From Arthrobacter sp. Leaf137 (GTDB lineage: Bacteria; Actinomycetota; Actinomycetes; Actinomycetales; Micrococcaceae), in contig NZ_LMOI01000002.1 in NCBI RefSeq assembly GCF_001423525.1, positions 1 through 64,000 of the forward strand: a DNA stretch of 64,000 nt, in the 5' to 3' direction. A program made the translations under genes and the position numbers. The notes beneath the pieces are model-generated. The model saw only the letters and a program-made list of their open reading frames with translations, searched no databases and was not told the origin of the DNA. Below, piece after piece: positions 30,977-35,864 of this stretch; position 1 is the first letter of the stretch, and each line of letters begins with the position of its first letter.

Positions 30977-31006
30977 TTGACCCGGGCGCGGAGACTCCAT
31001 TACAGT
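30977..31006 (+). promoter_or_regulatory. Candidate promoter of tRNA-Thr
   Basis: TTGACC (30977-30982), an 18-base spacer and TACAGT (31001-31006) end 47 bases before the tRNA. Both hexamers are close to consensus. Confidence 0.6.
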
Positions 31007-31053
31007 TGACTCTTGCATGAAGCGCCCGGATTCTTCCGGTCATTTTGTGCGGT

Positions 31054-31126
31054 GCTTCCTTAGCTCAGTCGGTAGAGCGTTTCACTCGTAATGAAAAGGT
31101 CATCAGTTCGATTCTGATAGGAAGCT
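31054..31126 (+). tRNA. tRNA-Thr (anticodon CGT)
   Basis: A complete 73-base cloverleaf. Acceptor GCTTCCT pairs with AGGAAGC (31119-31125), the anticodon stem is TTTCA/TGAAA with loop CTCGTAA (anticodon CGT at 31087-31089), and the T-arm ATCAG-TTCGATT-CTGAT is perfect. CCA is not encoded. It reads ACG codons. Confidence 0.97.
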
Positions 31127-31132
31127 CGGGAT

Positions 31133-31175
31133 AAACCCCCTATTGCCCCTCGTTACAGGGCTTTGGGGGGTTTTT
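31133..31175 (+). terminator. Terminator after tRNA-Thr
   Basis: AAACCCCC (31133-31140) pairs with GGGGGGTTT (31165-31173), with further pairing inside, and ends in TTTTT. It begins seven bases after the tRNA. Confidence 0.85.
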
Positions 31176-31210
31176 CGCTGGTTAAGCAGGTTTTTCGCTG
31201 GTTAAGCATG
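31171..31210. repeat. 20-bp tandem duplication next to the tRNA-Thr terminator
   Basis: Two adjacent 20-base units starting TTTTTCGCTGGTTAAGCA occupy 31171-31190 and 31191-31210 and differ at one position. The first unit begins in the T-run of the terminator. They do not copy the tRNA 3' end, and no integrase is nearby. Confidence 0.85.
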
Positions 31211-31447
31211 AACGGGAAACCCTGGCCGAGTACGGTGCAGAATCCTCCTGCTGTCCCTTTCCCTGCCCGTGAGCAGAAACGCGATCGACAGCCCGGAGGT
31301 CCACGGCTTCTTTGACTGACTCCTGCCGGTGCGCCACCCAGCGTTAGGGCAGGTATCCCCATGGCTGCGCAGCCCGGGAAGAGTACAGAATAGAGCAGGC
31401 GTCTGTCCTGGACGCCCGACCACCGTGAAAAATGACTGGGGAACTTC

Positions 31448-31897
31448 ATGAAACTCGCGATGCACAAAACAGCTACAGCCGGAGCCGTCTTCGCTTTGAG
31501 CGCCAGCGCAGTACTGGCGGGCGCACCCGCCGCCAACGCGTCAGGAACAGGAACCGCGTGCCCGACATCACGGGTGTGCTTCTACTTCAACTCCGACTTC
31601 CAGGGCGCACGCGCCGACTACGCCAACAGCGACGCCACCATGGGCAACGAACTGTTCACAGACGGCCCGGCTGGCCGGAACGGATGGGGCGTCCAGGTCA
31701 ACAACAACGCAGCATCCCTGATTAACAACACCTACGCGTACATCACGATCTACGACAACCCCGGCTGCGAAGGCTACGCCTGGTACATCCAACCGGGCGA
31801 GCGCCTCAACCTGGGCGCGATGAAAAACAGGGTCAGCTCAATCCACGTGGCTTATAACGGCGGGGCATGCCTCGACCGGGACCAGTCCTGGGCCTAG
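31448..31897 (+). CDS. Secreted peptidase inhibitor I36-like protein
   Basis: A 149-residue exported protein: signal peptide about 1-31 with an Ala-x-Ala type end near NASG, then a 118-residue cysteine-containing domain. The core CPTSRVCFYFNSDFQGARA and the later ITIYDNPGCEGY / YIQPGERLNLG pattern match the peptidase inhibitor family I36 (Streptomyces SMI-like), which is beta/gamma-crystallin-like. Target protease is unknown. ATG 31448 is used; ATG 31460 is also possible. It stands alone, closed by the terminator at 32007-32040. Confidence 0.75.
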   Translation: MKLAMHKTATAGAVFALSASAVLAGAPAANASGTGTACPTSRVCFYFNSDFQGARADYANSDATMGNELFTDGPAGRNGWGVQVNNNAASLINNTYAYITIYDNPGCEGYAWYIQPGERLNLGAMKNRVSSIHVAYNGGACLDRDQSWA

Positions 31898-32006
31898 CCC
31901 TCCACACTGCCCGCCGGGATATCTCCCCGACCGCCTGGCGCCATATCGAAAAAATGGCACGGCGGTTGGCCTGTTCACAAGTAGGTAGCCATAGCAACGA
32001 GTGAAT

Positions 32007-32040
32007 GGCCGGCACCCCACTGTTGTGGGTGCCGGCCTTT
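32007..32040 (+). terminator. Rho-independent terminator after the I36-like gene
   Basis: Perfect arms GGCCGGCACCC (32007-32017) and GGGTGCCGGCC (32027-32037) are followed by TTT. It lies about 110 bases past the stop and 29 bases from the converging membrane operon. Confidence 0.8.
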
Positions 32041-32068
32041 GACTGACTGAGTGAAACCCTACGGACAT

Positions 32069-32644
32069 CTATTGGCGAACGGCCACCATCTTGGTCCCGC
32101 AGACCAGCTGCAGCCCGCCGGCGGTTTCCAGCCGACAGTCCTGGGCTTTGACCCGCGGCCACCCGGAGATTTCCGGGGCGTCGCGAACGCGCTTGTAGTG
32201 GAACCCGTCGTGCTGCCCATAGATGGCGACGCTGTCACCGTCGAAACCGTCTTGGGTTACGAGGACTGACTGCCCGTCGACTGCGGTGATTTTCACGGTG
32301 TCCCCGACCCCGAAAGCGCCCAGGGCCGCGAAGACAAACACCCAGCCGAGGTACGGCACCGCGGCCGCGGCGGCTACCCCGGTGCTCCACCCGACGATCC
32401 GCCGCGGCACCTTCCGGGGAATTCGGCGTATCAGCGCTGGGAGCAGGAGCATCAGCGCCGCAGGCCCTGACAGGAAGGCCACAATCAAAAACCAGGAGGC
32501 AATGGAATCTGCAGGGATGCCCATGTAGAGGAGCAGGCCCTCTCGTGTGGCGGCCCGGTACGCTTCGCTGAGGACGTGGTGTACCCAGGTGCAGAGGGCC
32601 GCTGCGGCCAGGAGAACGCTCCCCCATATTTCACGGAGCTTCAT
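32069..32644 (-). CDS. Membrane protein of unknown function (third gene of the trio)
   Basis: A 191-residue protein not recognised as a named family. Hydrophobic segments lie at about 8-25, 50-71 and 84-112, and the last 75 residues form a soluble domain with two cysteines (KAQDC and QLVCG). The basic stretch RRIPRKVPRR between the second and third helices suggests a cytoplasmic loop, placing the C-terminal domain outside if there are three helices. Its start overlaps the preceding gene by four bases, so it is coupled to the 118-residue membrane protein and the micro-ORF. Confidence 0.7.
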   Translation of the reverse strand: MKLREIWGSVLLAAAALCTWVHHVLSEAYRAATREGLLLYMGIPADSIASWFLIVAFLSGPAALMLLLPALIRRIPRKVPRRIVGWSTGVAAAAAVPYLGWVFVFAALGAFGVGDTVKITAVDGQSVLVTQDGFDGDSVAIYGQHDGFHYKRVRDAPEISGWPRVKAQDCRLETAGGLQLVCGTKMVAVRQ

Positions 32645-32997
32645 GGGACATTAGCCGGATCGGGACGCTGGCATGCCGTCTTTGCCCGGGCAACCTCTAT
32701 CGTCTGTGTCACCGCAACGCGAATAACCTCCAGCAGCGCGAGAGCCAGCAGCACCATTGTGGTCTCCAGTGCGAGTAAGAACTCAACGAGTCCCCCAAGG
32801 GAATTGTTCTTCCATTCCGGTGGGACGGATTTGTCCACCTGGAAGCCAATGAGGAAGAACACCACGGCCGTCGCCGAGAGTCCTCCGAAGAGAAGGCGAC
32901 CGCTGTAACGAAAGGCACGGTGTCCCGTGGCGCCAAGGATCACGTGGACCAGCCAGAGGATACCGGCCACGAGCGGCATAGCGATGAAGGCGCTCAC
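32641..32997 (-). CDS. Small three-helix membrane protein (second gene of the trio)
   Basis: A 118-residue protein with three predicted transmembrane segments (about 3-24, 33-52 and 68-92) and a charged C-terminal tail. No family was recognised. The GTG start overlaps the stop of the upstream micro-ORF as GTGA and its own stop overlaps the next ATG by four bases. The double overlap supports all three frames as genes expressed in a fixed ratio. Confidence 0.7.
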   Translation of the reverse strand: MSAFIAMPLVAGILWLVHVILGATGHRAFRYSGRLLFGGLSATAVVFFLIGFQVDKSVPPEWKNNSLGGLVEFLLALETTMVLLALALLEVIRVAVTQTIEVARAKTACQRPDPANVP

Positions 32998-33101
32998 TTG
33001 GCGGCCAATTTGTTGCTGCGGAAGGTTCCGGCGATATACGGTTTGCGGCCGTATCCGATGGAGCCGTAGCGGAAAAGATGGACGGCGTCCCCCGAGGTCA
33101 T
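32994..33101 (-). CDS. 35-residue micro-protein heading the membrane-protein operon
   Basis: ATG 33101 opens a 36-codon frame starting MTSGDAVHLFRYGS and ending NKLAAK. It is basic, rich in Gly, Tyr and Arg, with no hydrophobic segment and no cysteine. Two things support it as real: TAGGCT lies exactly six bases before the ATG, the leaderless signature seen at other genes here, and its TGA overlaps the next GTG as GTGA. An in-frame TAG four codons upstream rules out an N-terminal extension. It could act as a peptide or only as a coupling leader. No family was recognised. Confidence 0.6.
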   Translation of the reverse strand: MTSGDAVHLFRYGSIGYGRKPYIAGTFRSNKLAAK

Positions 33102-33107
33102 GATCTC

Positions 33108-33113
33108 AGCCTA
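33108..33113 (-). promoter_or_regulatory. -10 element of the micro-ORF/membrane operon
   Basis: TAGGCT on the minus strand (33113-33108) is separated by GAGATC from ATG 33101. The same hexamer and spacing precede the DUF2516, tmk and 36313 genes. No good -35 is visible. Confidence 0.55.
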
Positions 33114-33486
33114 TCTGTGGCAGGTGGGTCTGCTACAGACAGGCTTGCATATAGGGCCCGGCCCTACCGGGTCAGATGTCTCTTCAATGGCCTACCCCCC
33201 GGCATGGTCCTCCGGCCGGGTCGGAGCCCCGAGGGGTCAGCACACGTAGCGGGGTTCGCCAGAACACGTACCGGTTACTCAGGCGCCGCGGCTGCTGAGG
33301 CCATAGCGTAGTGACCGGAGCCGGCGGCGATGGTGCTTGATGGAGACCAGCACCTCCCCCAGCCGTCGCCGGCCCGCACCAACTTTCGTAACCGTCTGCA
33401 CCCACCGCGGGGCCCATTGTTTTCGCTGACGAGCGGGGTCCCGCGCCTCCATGCAGCCTCGCAACCAGGCGCGCGGCCCGCCGGAA
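33114..33486. other. 373-bp region without a recognisable gene
   Basis: Short frames occur on both strands, but none has a family-like sequence, Shine-Dalgarno or leaderless signal. It lies between the end of ndh and the promoter of the membrane operon, both on the minus strand. No clear terminator for ndh was found in it. Confidence 0.5.
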
Positions 33487-34728
33487 CTAGTCCGGCCGGC
33501 CCACCACAACCTGGGACGGACTGTGCGTCACGTACCCCACCGCCCAGGAGAAGAGTGCGCGGACTTTCTGTTGGACGCCGGGCAGCAGGGCAAGGTGGAC
33601 GCCCAGCCAGGAGAGGAACGCCAGCGGACCCTGCAGCTGGATGCGCTGGGGGCCCAACTCTGCCACCGCGGCGCCCCGGCCCACCATGGCCATGTACCCC
33701 TTGTCGAGGTAGCGGAAGGGCTGCCGCGTACCGCCGGTGAGGTCAGCATGAATGTTTTTTGCGGCCCATTTCCCTGATTGCTGGGCCACGGACCCCAGTT
33801 GCGGGAGCCTGGCCCCCGCGGCGTCGGTGATGTTGGCAGAGTCTCCCAGGACGTAGACGCCCTCCACTCCCGGAGCGGTCAGGTCCGGGAGGACGTCGAT
33901 ACGCCCACCCTTTCCCTGCGTGAGCCCCGACTCGGCGATGATCTTGCCTGCCTGCAGGCCGCCGGCCCAGACGACGACGGGGGCAGGCAGCACAGTACCG
34001 TCCGCCAGCGTCACGCCGTTGGGGCGGACCTCCGTGACGCTCTGGCCCATGTGCAGCTGGACGCCCAGCTTCACCAGCCGGTCCCGGGTGTAGGCCTGCG
34101 ATTTCGCCGAGAAAGCCATGAGTACGTTGGGCACCATGTCCACAAGGTGGACGTGGCAGCGGGCGGCAAGCTCGGAGGAGAAGTACTTCGGCACGATGTA
34201 TTTGACGTTCTCGGCGAGGGCGCCGGCCGTCTCCACCCCGGTGGGGCCGCCTCCGACAACTACGACGTCGACGCTCCCGCCGGCTCCCCGGTCCGCCTCG
34301 TCGAGGACTTCCGTCAGGGCTGCGCTGAGCCGCGTGGCGTCGGCAACGGAGTAGAGCGGGTAGGCGTGTTTGTCGGCGCCAGGGGTATTAAAGAAGTTCG
34401 GGACAGCGCCCGTGGCGAGGACGAGGATCTGCGCCTGGAACCGCCCGCCGTCGGCAGTGGTGACGGTGCGGGCCGCAGCGTCCACCGCGGTGACTTCTGC
34501 CGTGAGGACCCGGACCCCCTTGATGTTTCGGAAGACCGCACGGAGCGGGCGGGCCACTGCGGAGACGCCGATTTGCGAGGATGCCACCTGGTACAGGAGG
34601 GGCTGGAACTGGTGATAGTTGTTGGTATCAATCAGCAGCACCCGGGTGCCCTTGCGGCCGAGTTCCTGGGCGGCGGCCTTCCCCGCGAAACCGCCGCCAA
34701 CCACGATGACCTGATATGTATCGTCCAT
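33487..34728 (-). CDS. ndh: Type II NADH:quinone oxidoreductase (NDH-2)
   Basis: A single-subunit respiratory NADH dehydrogenase that does not pump protons. The 413-residue protein has the FAD-binding VIVVGGGFAGKAAAQ at the N-terminus, the NADH-binding VVVVGGGPTGVETAGAL, the FAD motif GVYVLGDSANI, and the quinone-site AQQSGK region. A hydrophobic/amphipathic stretch near the C-terminus (GPLAFLSWLGVHLALLPG) fits monotopic membrane attachment. ATG 34728 is chosen because TATGTT stands six bases upstream. It is divergent from the coiled-coil gene at 34854. Confidence 0.92.
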   Translation of the reverse strand: MDDTYQVIVVGGGFAGKAAAQELGRKGTRVLLIDTNNYHQFQPLLYQVASSQIGVSAVARPLRAVFRNIKGVRVLTAEVTAVDAAARTVTTADGGRFQAQILVLATGAVPNFFNTPGADKHAYPLYSVADATRLSAALTEVLDEADRGAGGSVDVVVVGGGPTGVETAGALAENVKYIVPKYFSSELAARCHVHLVDMVPNVLMAFSAKSQAYTRDRLVKLGVQLHMGQSVTEVRPNGVTLADGTVLPAPVVVWAGGLQAGKIIAESGLTQGKGGRIDVLPDLTAPGVEGVYVLGDSANITDAAGARLPQLGSVAQQSGKWAAKNIHADLTGGTRQPFRYLDKGYMAMVGRGAAVAELGPQRIQLQGPLAFLSWLGVHLALLPGVQQKVRALFSWAVGYVTHSPSQVVVGRPD

Positions 34729-34853
34729 TCGAGCAACATACCGTGCACGGGGCCGGAGCAACAGGGCTCACCGGCCCCGCCAGCTGCCCGGTCCCGGCAG
34801 CGCCCGCCCGGCGCTCCATGCCCGTCCCAGCCCTCCCGCCTATGATGGCGGAC

Positions 34854-35864
34854 ATGGATGAAGAGGCCCTGGCCGGGATCGCGAACGGGCTGTACGCCTG
34901 TCCCCTGGACGACTTCGTGGCGGCCCGTACTGCCGCGGCCAAGGCGGCTGCCGGCCAGGATAAGGGCCTCGGGGCGGCAGTCCGTGGACTTGCCAAACCG
35001 TCGGTGGGCGCCTGGGCTGTAAACATGCTCGTCCTGCACCGGCCGGATGTCCTCGACGAACTCGCGGATCTGGGCTCACGCATGCGTGCGGCGCAGGCGT
35101 CCCTTGATGCCCCCGCCCTTCGCGACCTGGGGCGTGAGCGGCGCACCTTGCTGGCGTCCGCCGTCGACGCCGCCCGCGCGGTTGTCCGCGGTCAAGGCCG
35201 GCAACTCAGCGACACGATTGCCGGGGACGTCGAGGAGACACTGCGTGCCCTGACCGCCGACGAAGGGGCCGAGGCCGCCGTCCGCAGCGGCAGGCTCGTG
35301 AAGACCCTGTCCGCCGACGGGGTCAGCGCCGCAGACCTGGACGGTGTGGTGGCCGTACCCGGCGCCCTTCCCGCAACACCGGCCGTTGCTCCCCCGGTCC
35401 TTGCATCGGTGCCCACGCCCGGGAAGCCGGATTCCAAAAAGCCACAGCCAGGGAAGAAGCAGCGTACGACGCCGGAGGCCGGGTCCCACCCCCGGCCCAC
35501 CAGGCCGCGCCTTGAGGCCGTCCGGCAGACGCCACGGCCGGCGTCGCCGCCTCTGTTGGAAAGGGCCCGGGCGGCACTCGCCGCGGCCGAAGAAGAAGCA
35601 TCGGAAGCTGCCGGGCATGCCGTGGACCTTCAGGCGGAGGCGGAGCAGACCGCCGGGGACATTGCCTCGCTGCAGGAGGAAACCGCAGACCTGCGGGCCC
35701 GCCTGAAAACGGCAGAGGCTGAGCTGGACTACTCGAAGAAGCGTCTCGCTGCCATCTCCGCGGAGGCCAAACAGGCAACGCGGGCGTCGGATAAGGCGGC
35801 CAGGGCAGCCGTCCTGGCCCAGGAACGGGTCCTTCGGCTGGACCGCAGCGAGGCAGGGACCTGA
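34854..35864 (+). CDS. Ala-rich coiled-coil protein, function unknown
   Basis: A 336-residue protein. The N-terminal 150 residues are helical with the pattern YACPLDDFVAARTAAAKAA and LAKPSVGAWAVNML, seen in actinobacterial hypothetical proteins. A Pro/Lys-rich disordered linker (about 165-230) leads to a C-terminal coiled coil (about 230-325) rich in Ala and Glu. No signal peptide or membrane segment. ATG 34854 is chosen because TATGAT ends seven bases upstream; ATG 34842 and 34845 overlap that hexamer. Base composition matches the neighbours. Confidence 0.65.
   Translation: MDEEALAGIANGLYACPLDDFVAARTAAAKAAAGQDKGLGAAVRGLAKPSVGAWAVNMLVLHRPDVLDELADLGSRMRAAQASLDAPALRDLGRERRTLLASAVDAARAVVRGQGRQLSDTIAGDVEETLRALTADEGAEAAVRSGRLVKTLSADGVSAADLDGVVAVPGALPATPAVAPPVLASVPTPGKPDSKKPQPGKKQRTTPEAGSHPRPTRPRLEAVRQTPRPASPPLLERARAALAAAEEEASEAAGHAVDLQAEAEQTAGDIASLQEETADLRARLKTAEAELDYSKKRLAAISAEAKQATRASDKAARAAVLAQERVLRLDRSEAGT

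Follow-up and report, generated by a model that had tools for sequence, protein, structure and literature searches.

A 35-codon reading frame in Arthrobacter sp. Leaf137 is probably an in-frame deletion scar of an exporter operon head, kept as a leader ORF

What is a reading frame of only 35 codons doing directly ahead of two longer, overlapping genes? The frame lies at 32994-33101 on the minus strand of the window, the 64,000-nucleotide stretch of Arthrobacter sp. Leaf137 DNA that we analyzed; it starts with ATG and encodes 35 aa, MTSGDAVHLFRYGSIGYGRKPYIAGTFRSNKLAAK. A preliminary description had presented it as a micro-gene with its own leaderless promoter at the head of a three-gene membrane operon. 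As far as the layout goes, that description was accurate in every detail: the frame has 35 residues, TAGGCT stands six bases before the ATG, the stop overlaps the next start in GTGA, and the following pair of genes overlaps by four bases as well. The sizes given for the downstream products, 118 and 191 aa, were also borne out, and neither product belongs to a Pfam or NCBIfam family at curated cutoffs. The features of the locus, as we read them, are listed here.

33114-33153, minus strand: upstream promoter region, apparently descended from the natA promoter (40-base identity to natA upstreams)
33108-33113, minus strand: -10-type hexamer TAGGCT, exactly six bases (GAGATC) 5' of the scar ATG
32994-33101, minus strand: the reported micro-ORF, read as a natA'-'natB in-frame deletion scar and proposed leader ORF, 35 codons
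33087-33101, minus strand: natA-derived head, five codons ATG ACC TCG GGG GAC (MTSGD), assigned by alignment with natA starts
32994-33086, minus strand: natB-derived tail, the last 30 codons plus stop of an ABC-2 permease gene, assigned by natB residue and DNA matches
32994-32997, minus strand: GTGA stop/start overlap of the scar TGA with the GTG of ORF2
32641-32997, minus strand: ORF2, a 118-aa membrane protein without a family
32641-32644, minus strand: ATGA overlap of the ORF2 TGA with the ATG of ORF3
32069-32644, minus strand: ORF3, 191 aa

Origin of the reading frame

Residues 6 to 35 of the micro-ORF match residues 383 to 412 of natB. We searched the 35 residues against 198 genomes of the genus, its own included, and the matched frames were mostly long, with the hit at the C-terminal end. 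At an E value of 1e-3 or better, natB ends matched residues 6 to 35 in at least 40 of the 197 other genomes (a hand count); the best match had an E value of 9e-11, with 80 to 83% identity. In L111 to L139, the matched natB end reads like AVHLFRYGSIEYGRKLSIAGTFRRNELAAK, followed directly by the stop. The DNA agrees with this assignment. The last 93 nt of the scar are 76 to 84% identical to 13 natB ends from the loci of relatives, while the first 15 nt, the hexamer TAGGCT and the 40 bases upstream follow natA. An MTSGD start is also found in the natA genes of L142 (MTSGDSAQ) and L143 (MTSGDAAQ), and L143, from G221, has the MTSGD head and a natB stop in GTGA context together, with the next gene beginning 28 bases on. 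The scar thus matches a natA start first and a natB end second, in the correct frame.

In these loci natA carries PF00005 and DrrA1-3_C, and natB carries PF12698 (ABC-2 permease). We take natA and natB to be the appropriate labels for an ATPase with PF00005 and the DrrA1-3 C-terminal domain and for its partner permease. Measured against five intact natAB loci, the net loss at the scar is 2060 to 2065 nt, or about 2.06 kb; by eye, about three bases (CGC) are common to both sides of the join. With 15 differences from the natB consensus (9 synonymous, 6 nonsynonymous), the scar must be old rather than an artifact of assembly. From these matches, the micro-ORF is almost certainly natA codon 5 fused in frame to natB codon 383 by an internal deletion. 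We also considered a stub of natA alone, which is ruled out by the match of residues 6 to 35 to natB ends.

Both ends of the scar derive from a pair of the DrrA/NatA-NatB type of ABC-2 exporters, here often found near pspA. Unlike such exporters, the scar keeps neither an ATPase motif nor a membrane helix in its 35 residues. It matches no Pfam family, is not a functional exporter member and cannot transport.

Intact relatives and recurrent natA-type heads

The complete order natA-natB-x153-ORF3 is present in G147 (L140). G132 (L090) has a truncated natB and, behind it, x153, ORF3, a PH186-type gene, ORF4 and pspA. None of the loci fetched has a complete natA-natB-ORF2 order; in these loci, natB directly precedes ORF2 only in scars, namely, the window, G154 and, less surely, G042. 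The window's own genome has an intact natAB paralogue on contig C12. Decay of the natAB locus is frequent, by insertion in L157, a nonsense codon in L024 and frameshifts in L155. In L157 (G173), natA is split by a 442-aa opposite-strand frame, perhaps a mobile element, and natB is intact.

The accessory cluster of natA, natB, x153 or ORF2, ORF3, PH186, ORF4 and pspA varies among species of the genus (L140, L090 and L194), and no family has been named for its small membrane proteins. Of the 16 genomes searched, 8 have pspA at a distance of 0.1 to 6.5 kb from ORF3. No pspA stands beside ORF3 in the window's own genome, which has two pspA genes on other contigs, C23 and C24. Passages of PMC11237479, which concerns PspA partners, mention neither Arthrobacter nor a natAB association of this kind.

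When at most two mismatches were allowed, TAGGCT-N6-ATGACNTTGGGGGACGC gave 47 sites in 38 of 206 genomes, and the reversed control gave none. Together with two heads from ORF3 loci, these make up 49 heads, which were classified by a script that counted a cluster gene when at least 0.7 of the reference gene was covered. Fourteen lead an intact natA, 8 are in-frame fusions to a cluster gene (x153 five times, then pspA, ORF4 and ORF3), 13 are stop/start coupled (12 overlaps at -4 and one at -1), and 14 are neither. One of the 21 fused or coupled heads is doubtful, the 72-aa TTG frame of G214 in the coupled class. By breakpoint, the 21 heads fall into about 11 distinct junctions, grouped by hand and after the fact, and all are in frame: the window, G138, G154, G042, G037, G173, G178, G021, G007, the x153 group and a group of 20-21-codon leaders. 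At a chance of one third for each, finding all of about 11 in frame has a probability of about 6 in a million, a post hoc test that assumes independence.

Other natA'-'natB fusions have breakpoints that differ from those of the window. G154 joins natA 1-22 to natB 378-412 and G138 joins natA 1-62 to natB 377-412; a third natA'-'natB fusion, in G042, is less secure. All three are GTGA-coupled. The 20-21-codon leaders precede ORF2 in G136, G196, G190, G122 and G215, and that of G122 starts with CTG. These leaders, of the MTLGDAxQPLHWxSDTxRGE type, are coupled before ORF2 in five species (L191, L186, L190, L178 and L101), and in L193 and L019 a leader of this type persists without a coupled ORF2. 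Another pair of loci can be compared directly. The head of G038 (L161) opens a 159-aa x153 whose end has an ATGA overlap with a 126-aa gene; in G055 (L192), a similar head leads 31 codons only, with an ATGA overlap with the same 126-aa gene. The comparison of an intact x153 with a 31-codon in-frame remnant points to a second deletion scar kept as a coupled leader.

In-frame retention of heads is not universal, since 14 of the 35 non-intact heads have no intact cluster gene fused or coupled to them. These are as follows.

Nonsense mutation: L024
Insertion: L157
x153 fusions that a later frameshift disrupted: L160, L174, L179
Broken natA-natB or natA-pspA fusions: L150, L155, L180
Uncoupled stubs: L156, L182, L189, L193, L019
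Hpt-domain protein, not cluster-like: L185

The Hpt-domain protein of L185 (G188) opens with a TAGGCT-N6-ATGACGTTGGGGGACGC head, and it is no obvious cluster member.

Promoter, coupling and the proposed role of the scar

We examined the spacing of -10-type hexamers in the long ORFs of the window and of the fetched loci, excluding 17 ORFs with natA-type heads. TAnnnT at spacings of 6 and 7 was found before 13 and 12 of 714 start candidates, compared with 0 and 3 of 615 internal ATG/GTG controls. Counted by ORF, with natA-type heads again excluded, 25 of 190 have TAnnnT at a spacing of 6-7. This placement before starts is not due to chance but is a property of the genus, and the enrichment makes a leaderless reading of the micro-ORF reasonable. 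Among natA genes the arrangement is common: 16 of the 24 distinct natA loci found by homology (25 entries, one of them a duplicate) have TAnnnT 6-7 bases before the start. TAGGCT-N6-ATGAnnnnGGGnGnCGC occurs in 16 of 150 genomes of the genus, its own included, and the reversed control pattern occurs in none.

The micro-ORF has no TTGACA-type -35, and a sigma-70 scan that requires such a -35 gives no promoter here. The 40 bases upstream are identical to natA upstreams at 31 positions for L024 (G056), 27 for L022 (G035) and 25 for L016 (G006). All three exceed 22, the best score of 20,000 random 40-mers from the window in the same comparison. The natA of L024 has its nonsense codon at position 92. 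Of the preliminary description, the geometry of a leaderless promoter and both four-base couplings hold up, and the transcript probably starts at the ATG.

The window has a perfect inverted repeat, TAGGGCC-G-GGCCCTA, at 33152-33166, 38 bases before TAGGCT. An operator role was considered for this palindrome, which by eye is absent upstream of five natA relatives. In a separate comparison of 16 natA genes, synonymous identity over codons 3-10 ranked 2nd of 305 eight-codon windows, and codons 2-9 ranked 48th. This is only suggestive of a possible DNA- or RNA-level constraint on the first codons of leaderless natA.

The downstream genes evolve as real genes. The dN/dS values are 0.27 to 0.36 for ORF2 (three pairs) and 0.21 to 0.23 for ORF3 (five pairs), which indicates purifying selection on both. 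The micro-ORF and ORF3 had no Pfam match, and ORF2 had only weak ones (GldL_N and DUF998), below cutoffs; NCBIfam had no match for ORF2 or ORF3. The AlphaFold2 model of ORF3 (mean pLDDT, 89.2) has three long helices, likely membrane-embedded, and a C-terminal seven-strand beta domain. No PDB entry matched this model at an E value of 0.001 or better, the best listed being 0.21. ORF3 had no match in 72,556 plasmid records, and a single-sequence scan of named genomes found no relative; a profile scan with ORF3 gave 11 loci. Because of their company with the exporter and pspA, a guess would be that ORF2 and ORF3 act in envelope stress.

We consider it probable that the micro-ORF is the deletion scar of a leaderless natA-natB head, kept as a minimal leader ORF for ORF2 and ORF3. 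An internal deletion almost certainly removed nearly all of this operon head, which encoded an ABC-2 type exporter, and spared two pieces: the promoter and ATG of natA, and the stop of natB, which overlaps the next gene. Since both functional ends survived, the deletion would have been tolerated, and with both kept, the scar could work as a minimal leader ORF. The GTGA overlap at its end probably goes back to the stop of natB; at 5 of the 29 natB loci listed, the window excluded (L111, L119, L121, L122 and L133, some of them truncated), that stop shares four bases, RTGA, with the start of the following long frame. On a transcript beginning at the scar ATG, that 5' ATG would be the main ribosome entry. 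A ribosome would start on the leaderless ATG, read 35 codons, end at the TGA, and reinitiate on the overlapping GTG of ORF2 (GTGA) and then on the ATG of ORF3 (ATGA). Anti-Shine-Dalgarno pairing reveals no Shine-Dalgarno site at the GTG of ORF2 or the ATG of ORF3: the energies are -1.5 and -1.7 kcal/mol at these starts and -4.6 kcal/mol at the scar ATG, with a random mean of -3.9 kcal/mol. ORF2 and ORF3 would thus depend on termination-reinitiation. The cell could probably do without the scar peptide as such; what counts is an open frame that overlaps the next start, though the peptide may still be important.

Counting against a leader are natB remnants that have neither a natA head nor an adjoining cluster gene (G201, G194 and G121; L205 to L207); such tails can persist as debris. 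The remnant of G201 (L205) begins at natB codon 383, like the tail in the window, in another context. The scar, too, could be pure debris, an old pseudogene fragment open by chance, with ORF2 and ORF3 expressed from elsewhere or not at all. The bare remnants, the 14 uncoupled or broken heads among the 35 and the frequent decay of natAB all fit such an origin. We nevertheless regard it as unlikely: purifying selection acts on ORF2 and ORF3, neither the natA promoter nor either overlap is broken, and at the roughly 11 hand-grouped junctions with an intact cluster gene behind the head, every head is in frame.

Does the peptide matter for its own sake? The preliminary description had it as a distinct soluble basic micro-protein. 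This does not fit with a peptide composed of five residues from an ABC ATPase start and 30 from an ABC-2 permease end. Nor did we find the 35 residues conserved as a gene of their own: the non-self matches inspected in the search of 198 genomes were natB ends, natB remnants that lack a natA head (L205 to L207) or different scars (G138 and G154). ORF3 has relatives in 34 of 150 genomes, and many loci keep this 191-aa gene without such a frame, which speaks against a conserved micro-protein. At 30 ORF3 loci examined, natA-type heads were present at 9, G147 among them, and absent from 21, so ORF3 does not generally need such a leader. Leaders at equivalent places encode different peptides, of 19 to 86 aa. 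In 12 further genomes (G214 being doubtful), leaders of 20 to 86 aa with differing sequences are coupled to ORF2, ORF3, x153 or a 126-aa gene. The RTGA linkage is conserved while the leader peptide varies between species.

A functional small protein, for example, a NatB tail kept as a binding partner of membrane proteins, therefore seems to us quite unlikely, even though the frame is intact and, relative to the natB consensus, 9 of the 15 changes in the tail are synonymous. The 6 nonsynonymous ones, over 30 codons, are slightly above the 0 to 5.5 of the 13 natB ends, which are themselves the source of the consensus. The pN/pS of the scar tail against natB ends, 0.25, is close to the 0.16 of natB against natB, so the peptide may still be under constraint. 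Still less probable is an attenuator or stress-sensing leader peptide that regulates ORF2 and ORF3 by its translation: the position and coupling are compatible, and passages of PMC4633059 propose attenuating leaderless small ORFs with a cysteine-rich peptide in mycobacteria, but the peptide here lacks a run of any one residue, comes from natB and was not shaped for sensing, and has no terminator in or before it in a scan whose single hit lies inside ORF2 (32916-32929; 0.6 expected by chance). Rfam, run over window positions 31000 to 35000, gave only a tRNA at 31054-31126 and a subthreshold match at the same place, with no RNA element at the leader.

Relation to known coupled ORFs

The proposed leader has close counterparts in mycobacteria. 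Passages of Shell et al. 2015 (PMC4633059) describe hundreds of predicted small proteins, many of them leaderless, some coupled and often without a conserved peptide; among them are leaderless small ORFs that share an RTGA overlap with the gene behind them, a linkage that is kept while the peptide is not conserved. Like these, the scar is a short ORF with its start codon at the presumed transcript start, an RTGA overlap and a varying peptide, and by analogy its leader mechanism would match the description given in passages of PMC4633059 and PMC12548453. In contrast to the mycobacterial ORFs, for which the passages of PMC4633059 give no origin, that of the scar can be read as the joined ends of two deleted genes; its presumed transcript start, for its part, is deduced from promoter geometry. 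Mycobacterial interspersed repetitive units (MIRUs) offer a second comparison. According to passages of a review (PMC12548453), they couple an inserted ORF to a gene at a spacing of -4. A short ORF at a start codon and coupling by a four-base overlap are common to both, but MIRUs are inserted repeats, whereas the scar ORF is the product of a deletion and has a promoter of its own.

A literature search, with subscription papers mostly outside it, found no published in-frame operon deletion that gave a leaderless coupled ORF. Leaderless coupled small ORFs are known from mycobacteria; what is new here is an origin traced to repeated in-frame gene loss. More broadly, leaderless first genes may be portable start modules: when the body of the gene is lost, selection would keep the promoter and a few codons in a usable frame, that is, any frame that ends on, or runs into, the next gene. 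On this account, TAGGCT-N6-ATGrCnTTGGGGGACGC would have served natA, x153, ORF2, ORF3, ORF4 and pspA in the genus. We see the arguments for and against this wider account as evenly balanced. If it is true, gene loss is a recurring source of coupled leaderless small ORFs and of unexplained N-terminal extensions across actinobacteria.

The locus shows a coupled small ORF in the making, with both parents identifiable, intact relatives at hand and differently sized scars in other species. It also cautions against reading every well-placed micro-ORF with a good promoter as the gene of a functional peptide. For annotation, this suggests a simple test: the two ends of a micro-ORF can be compared with the start and end of the genes lost from that place. 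Beyond the operon, the tRNA at 31054-31126 is adjoined by a plus-strand gene at 31448-31897 whose 149-aa product starts with a signal-like stretch and contains a peptidase inhibitor I36 domain.
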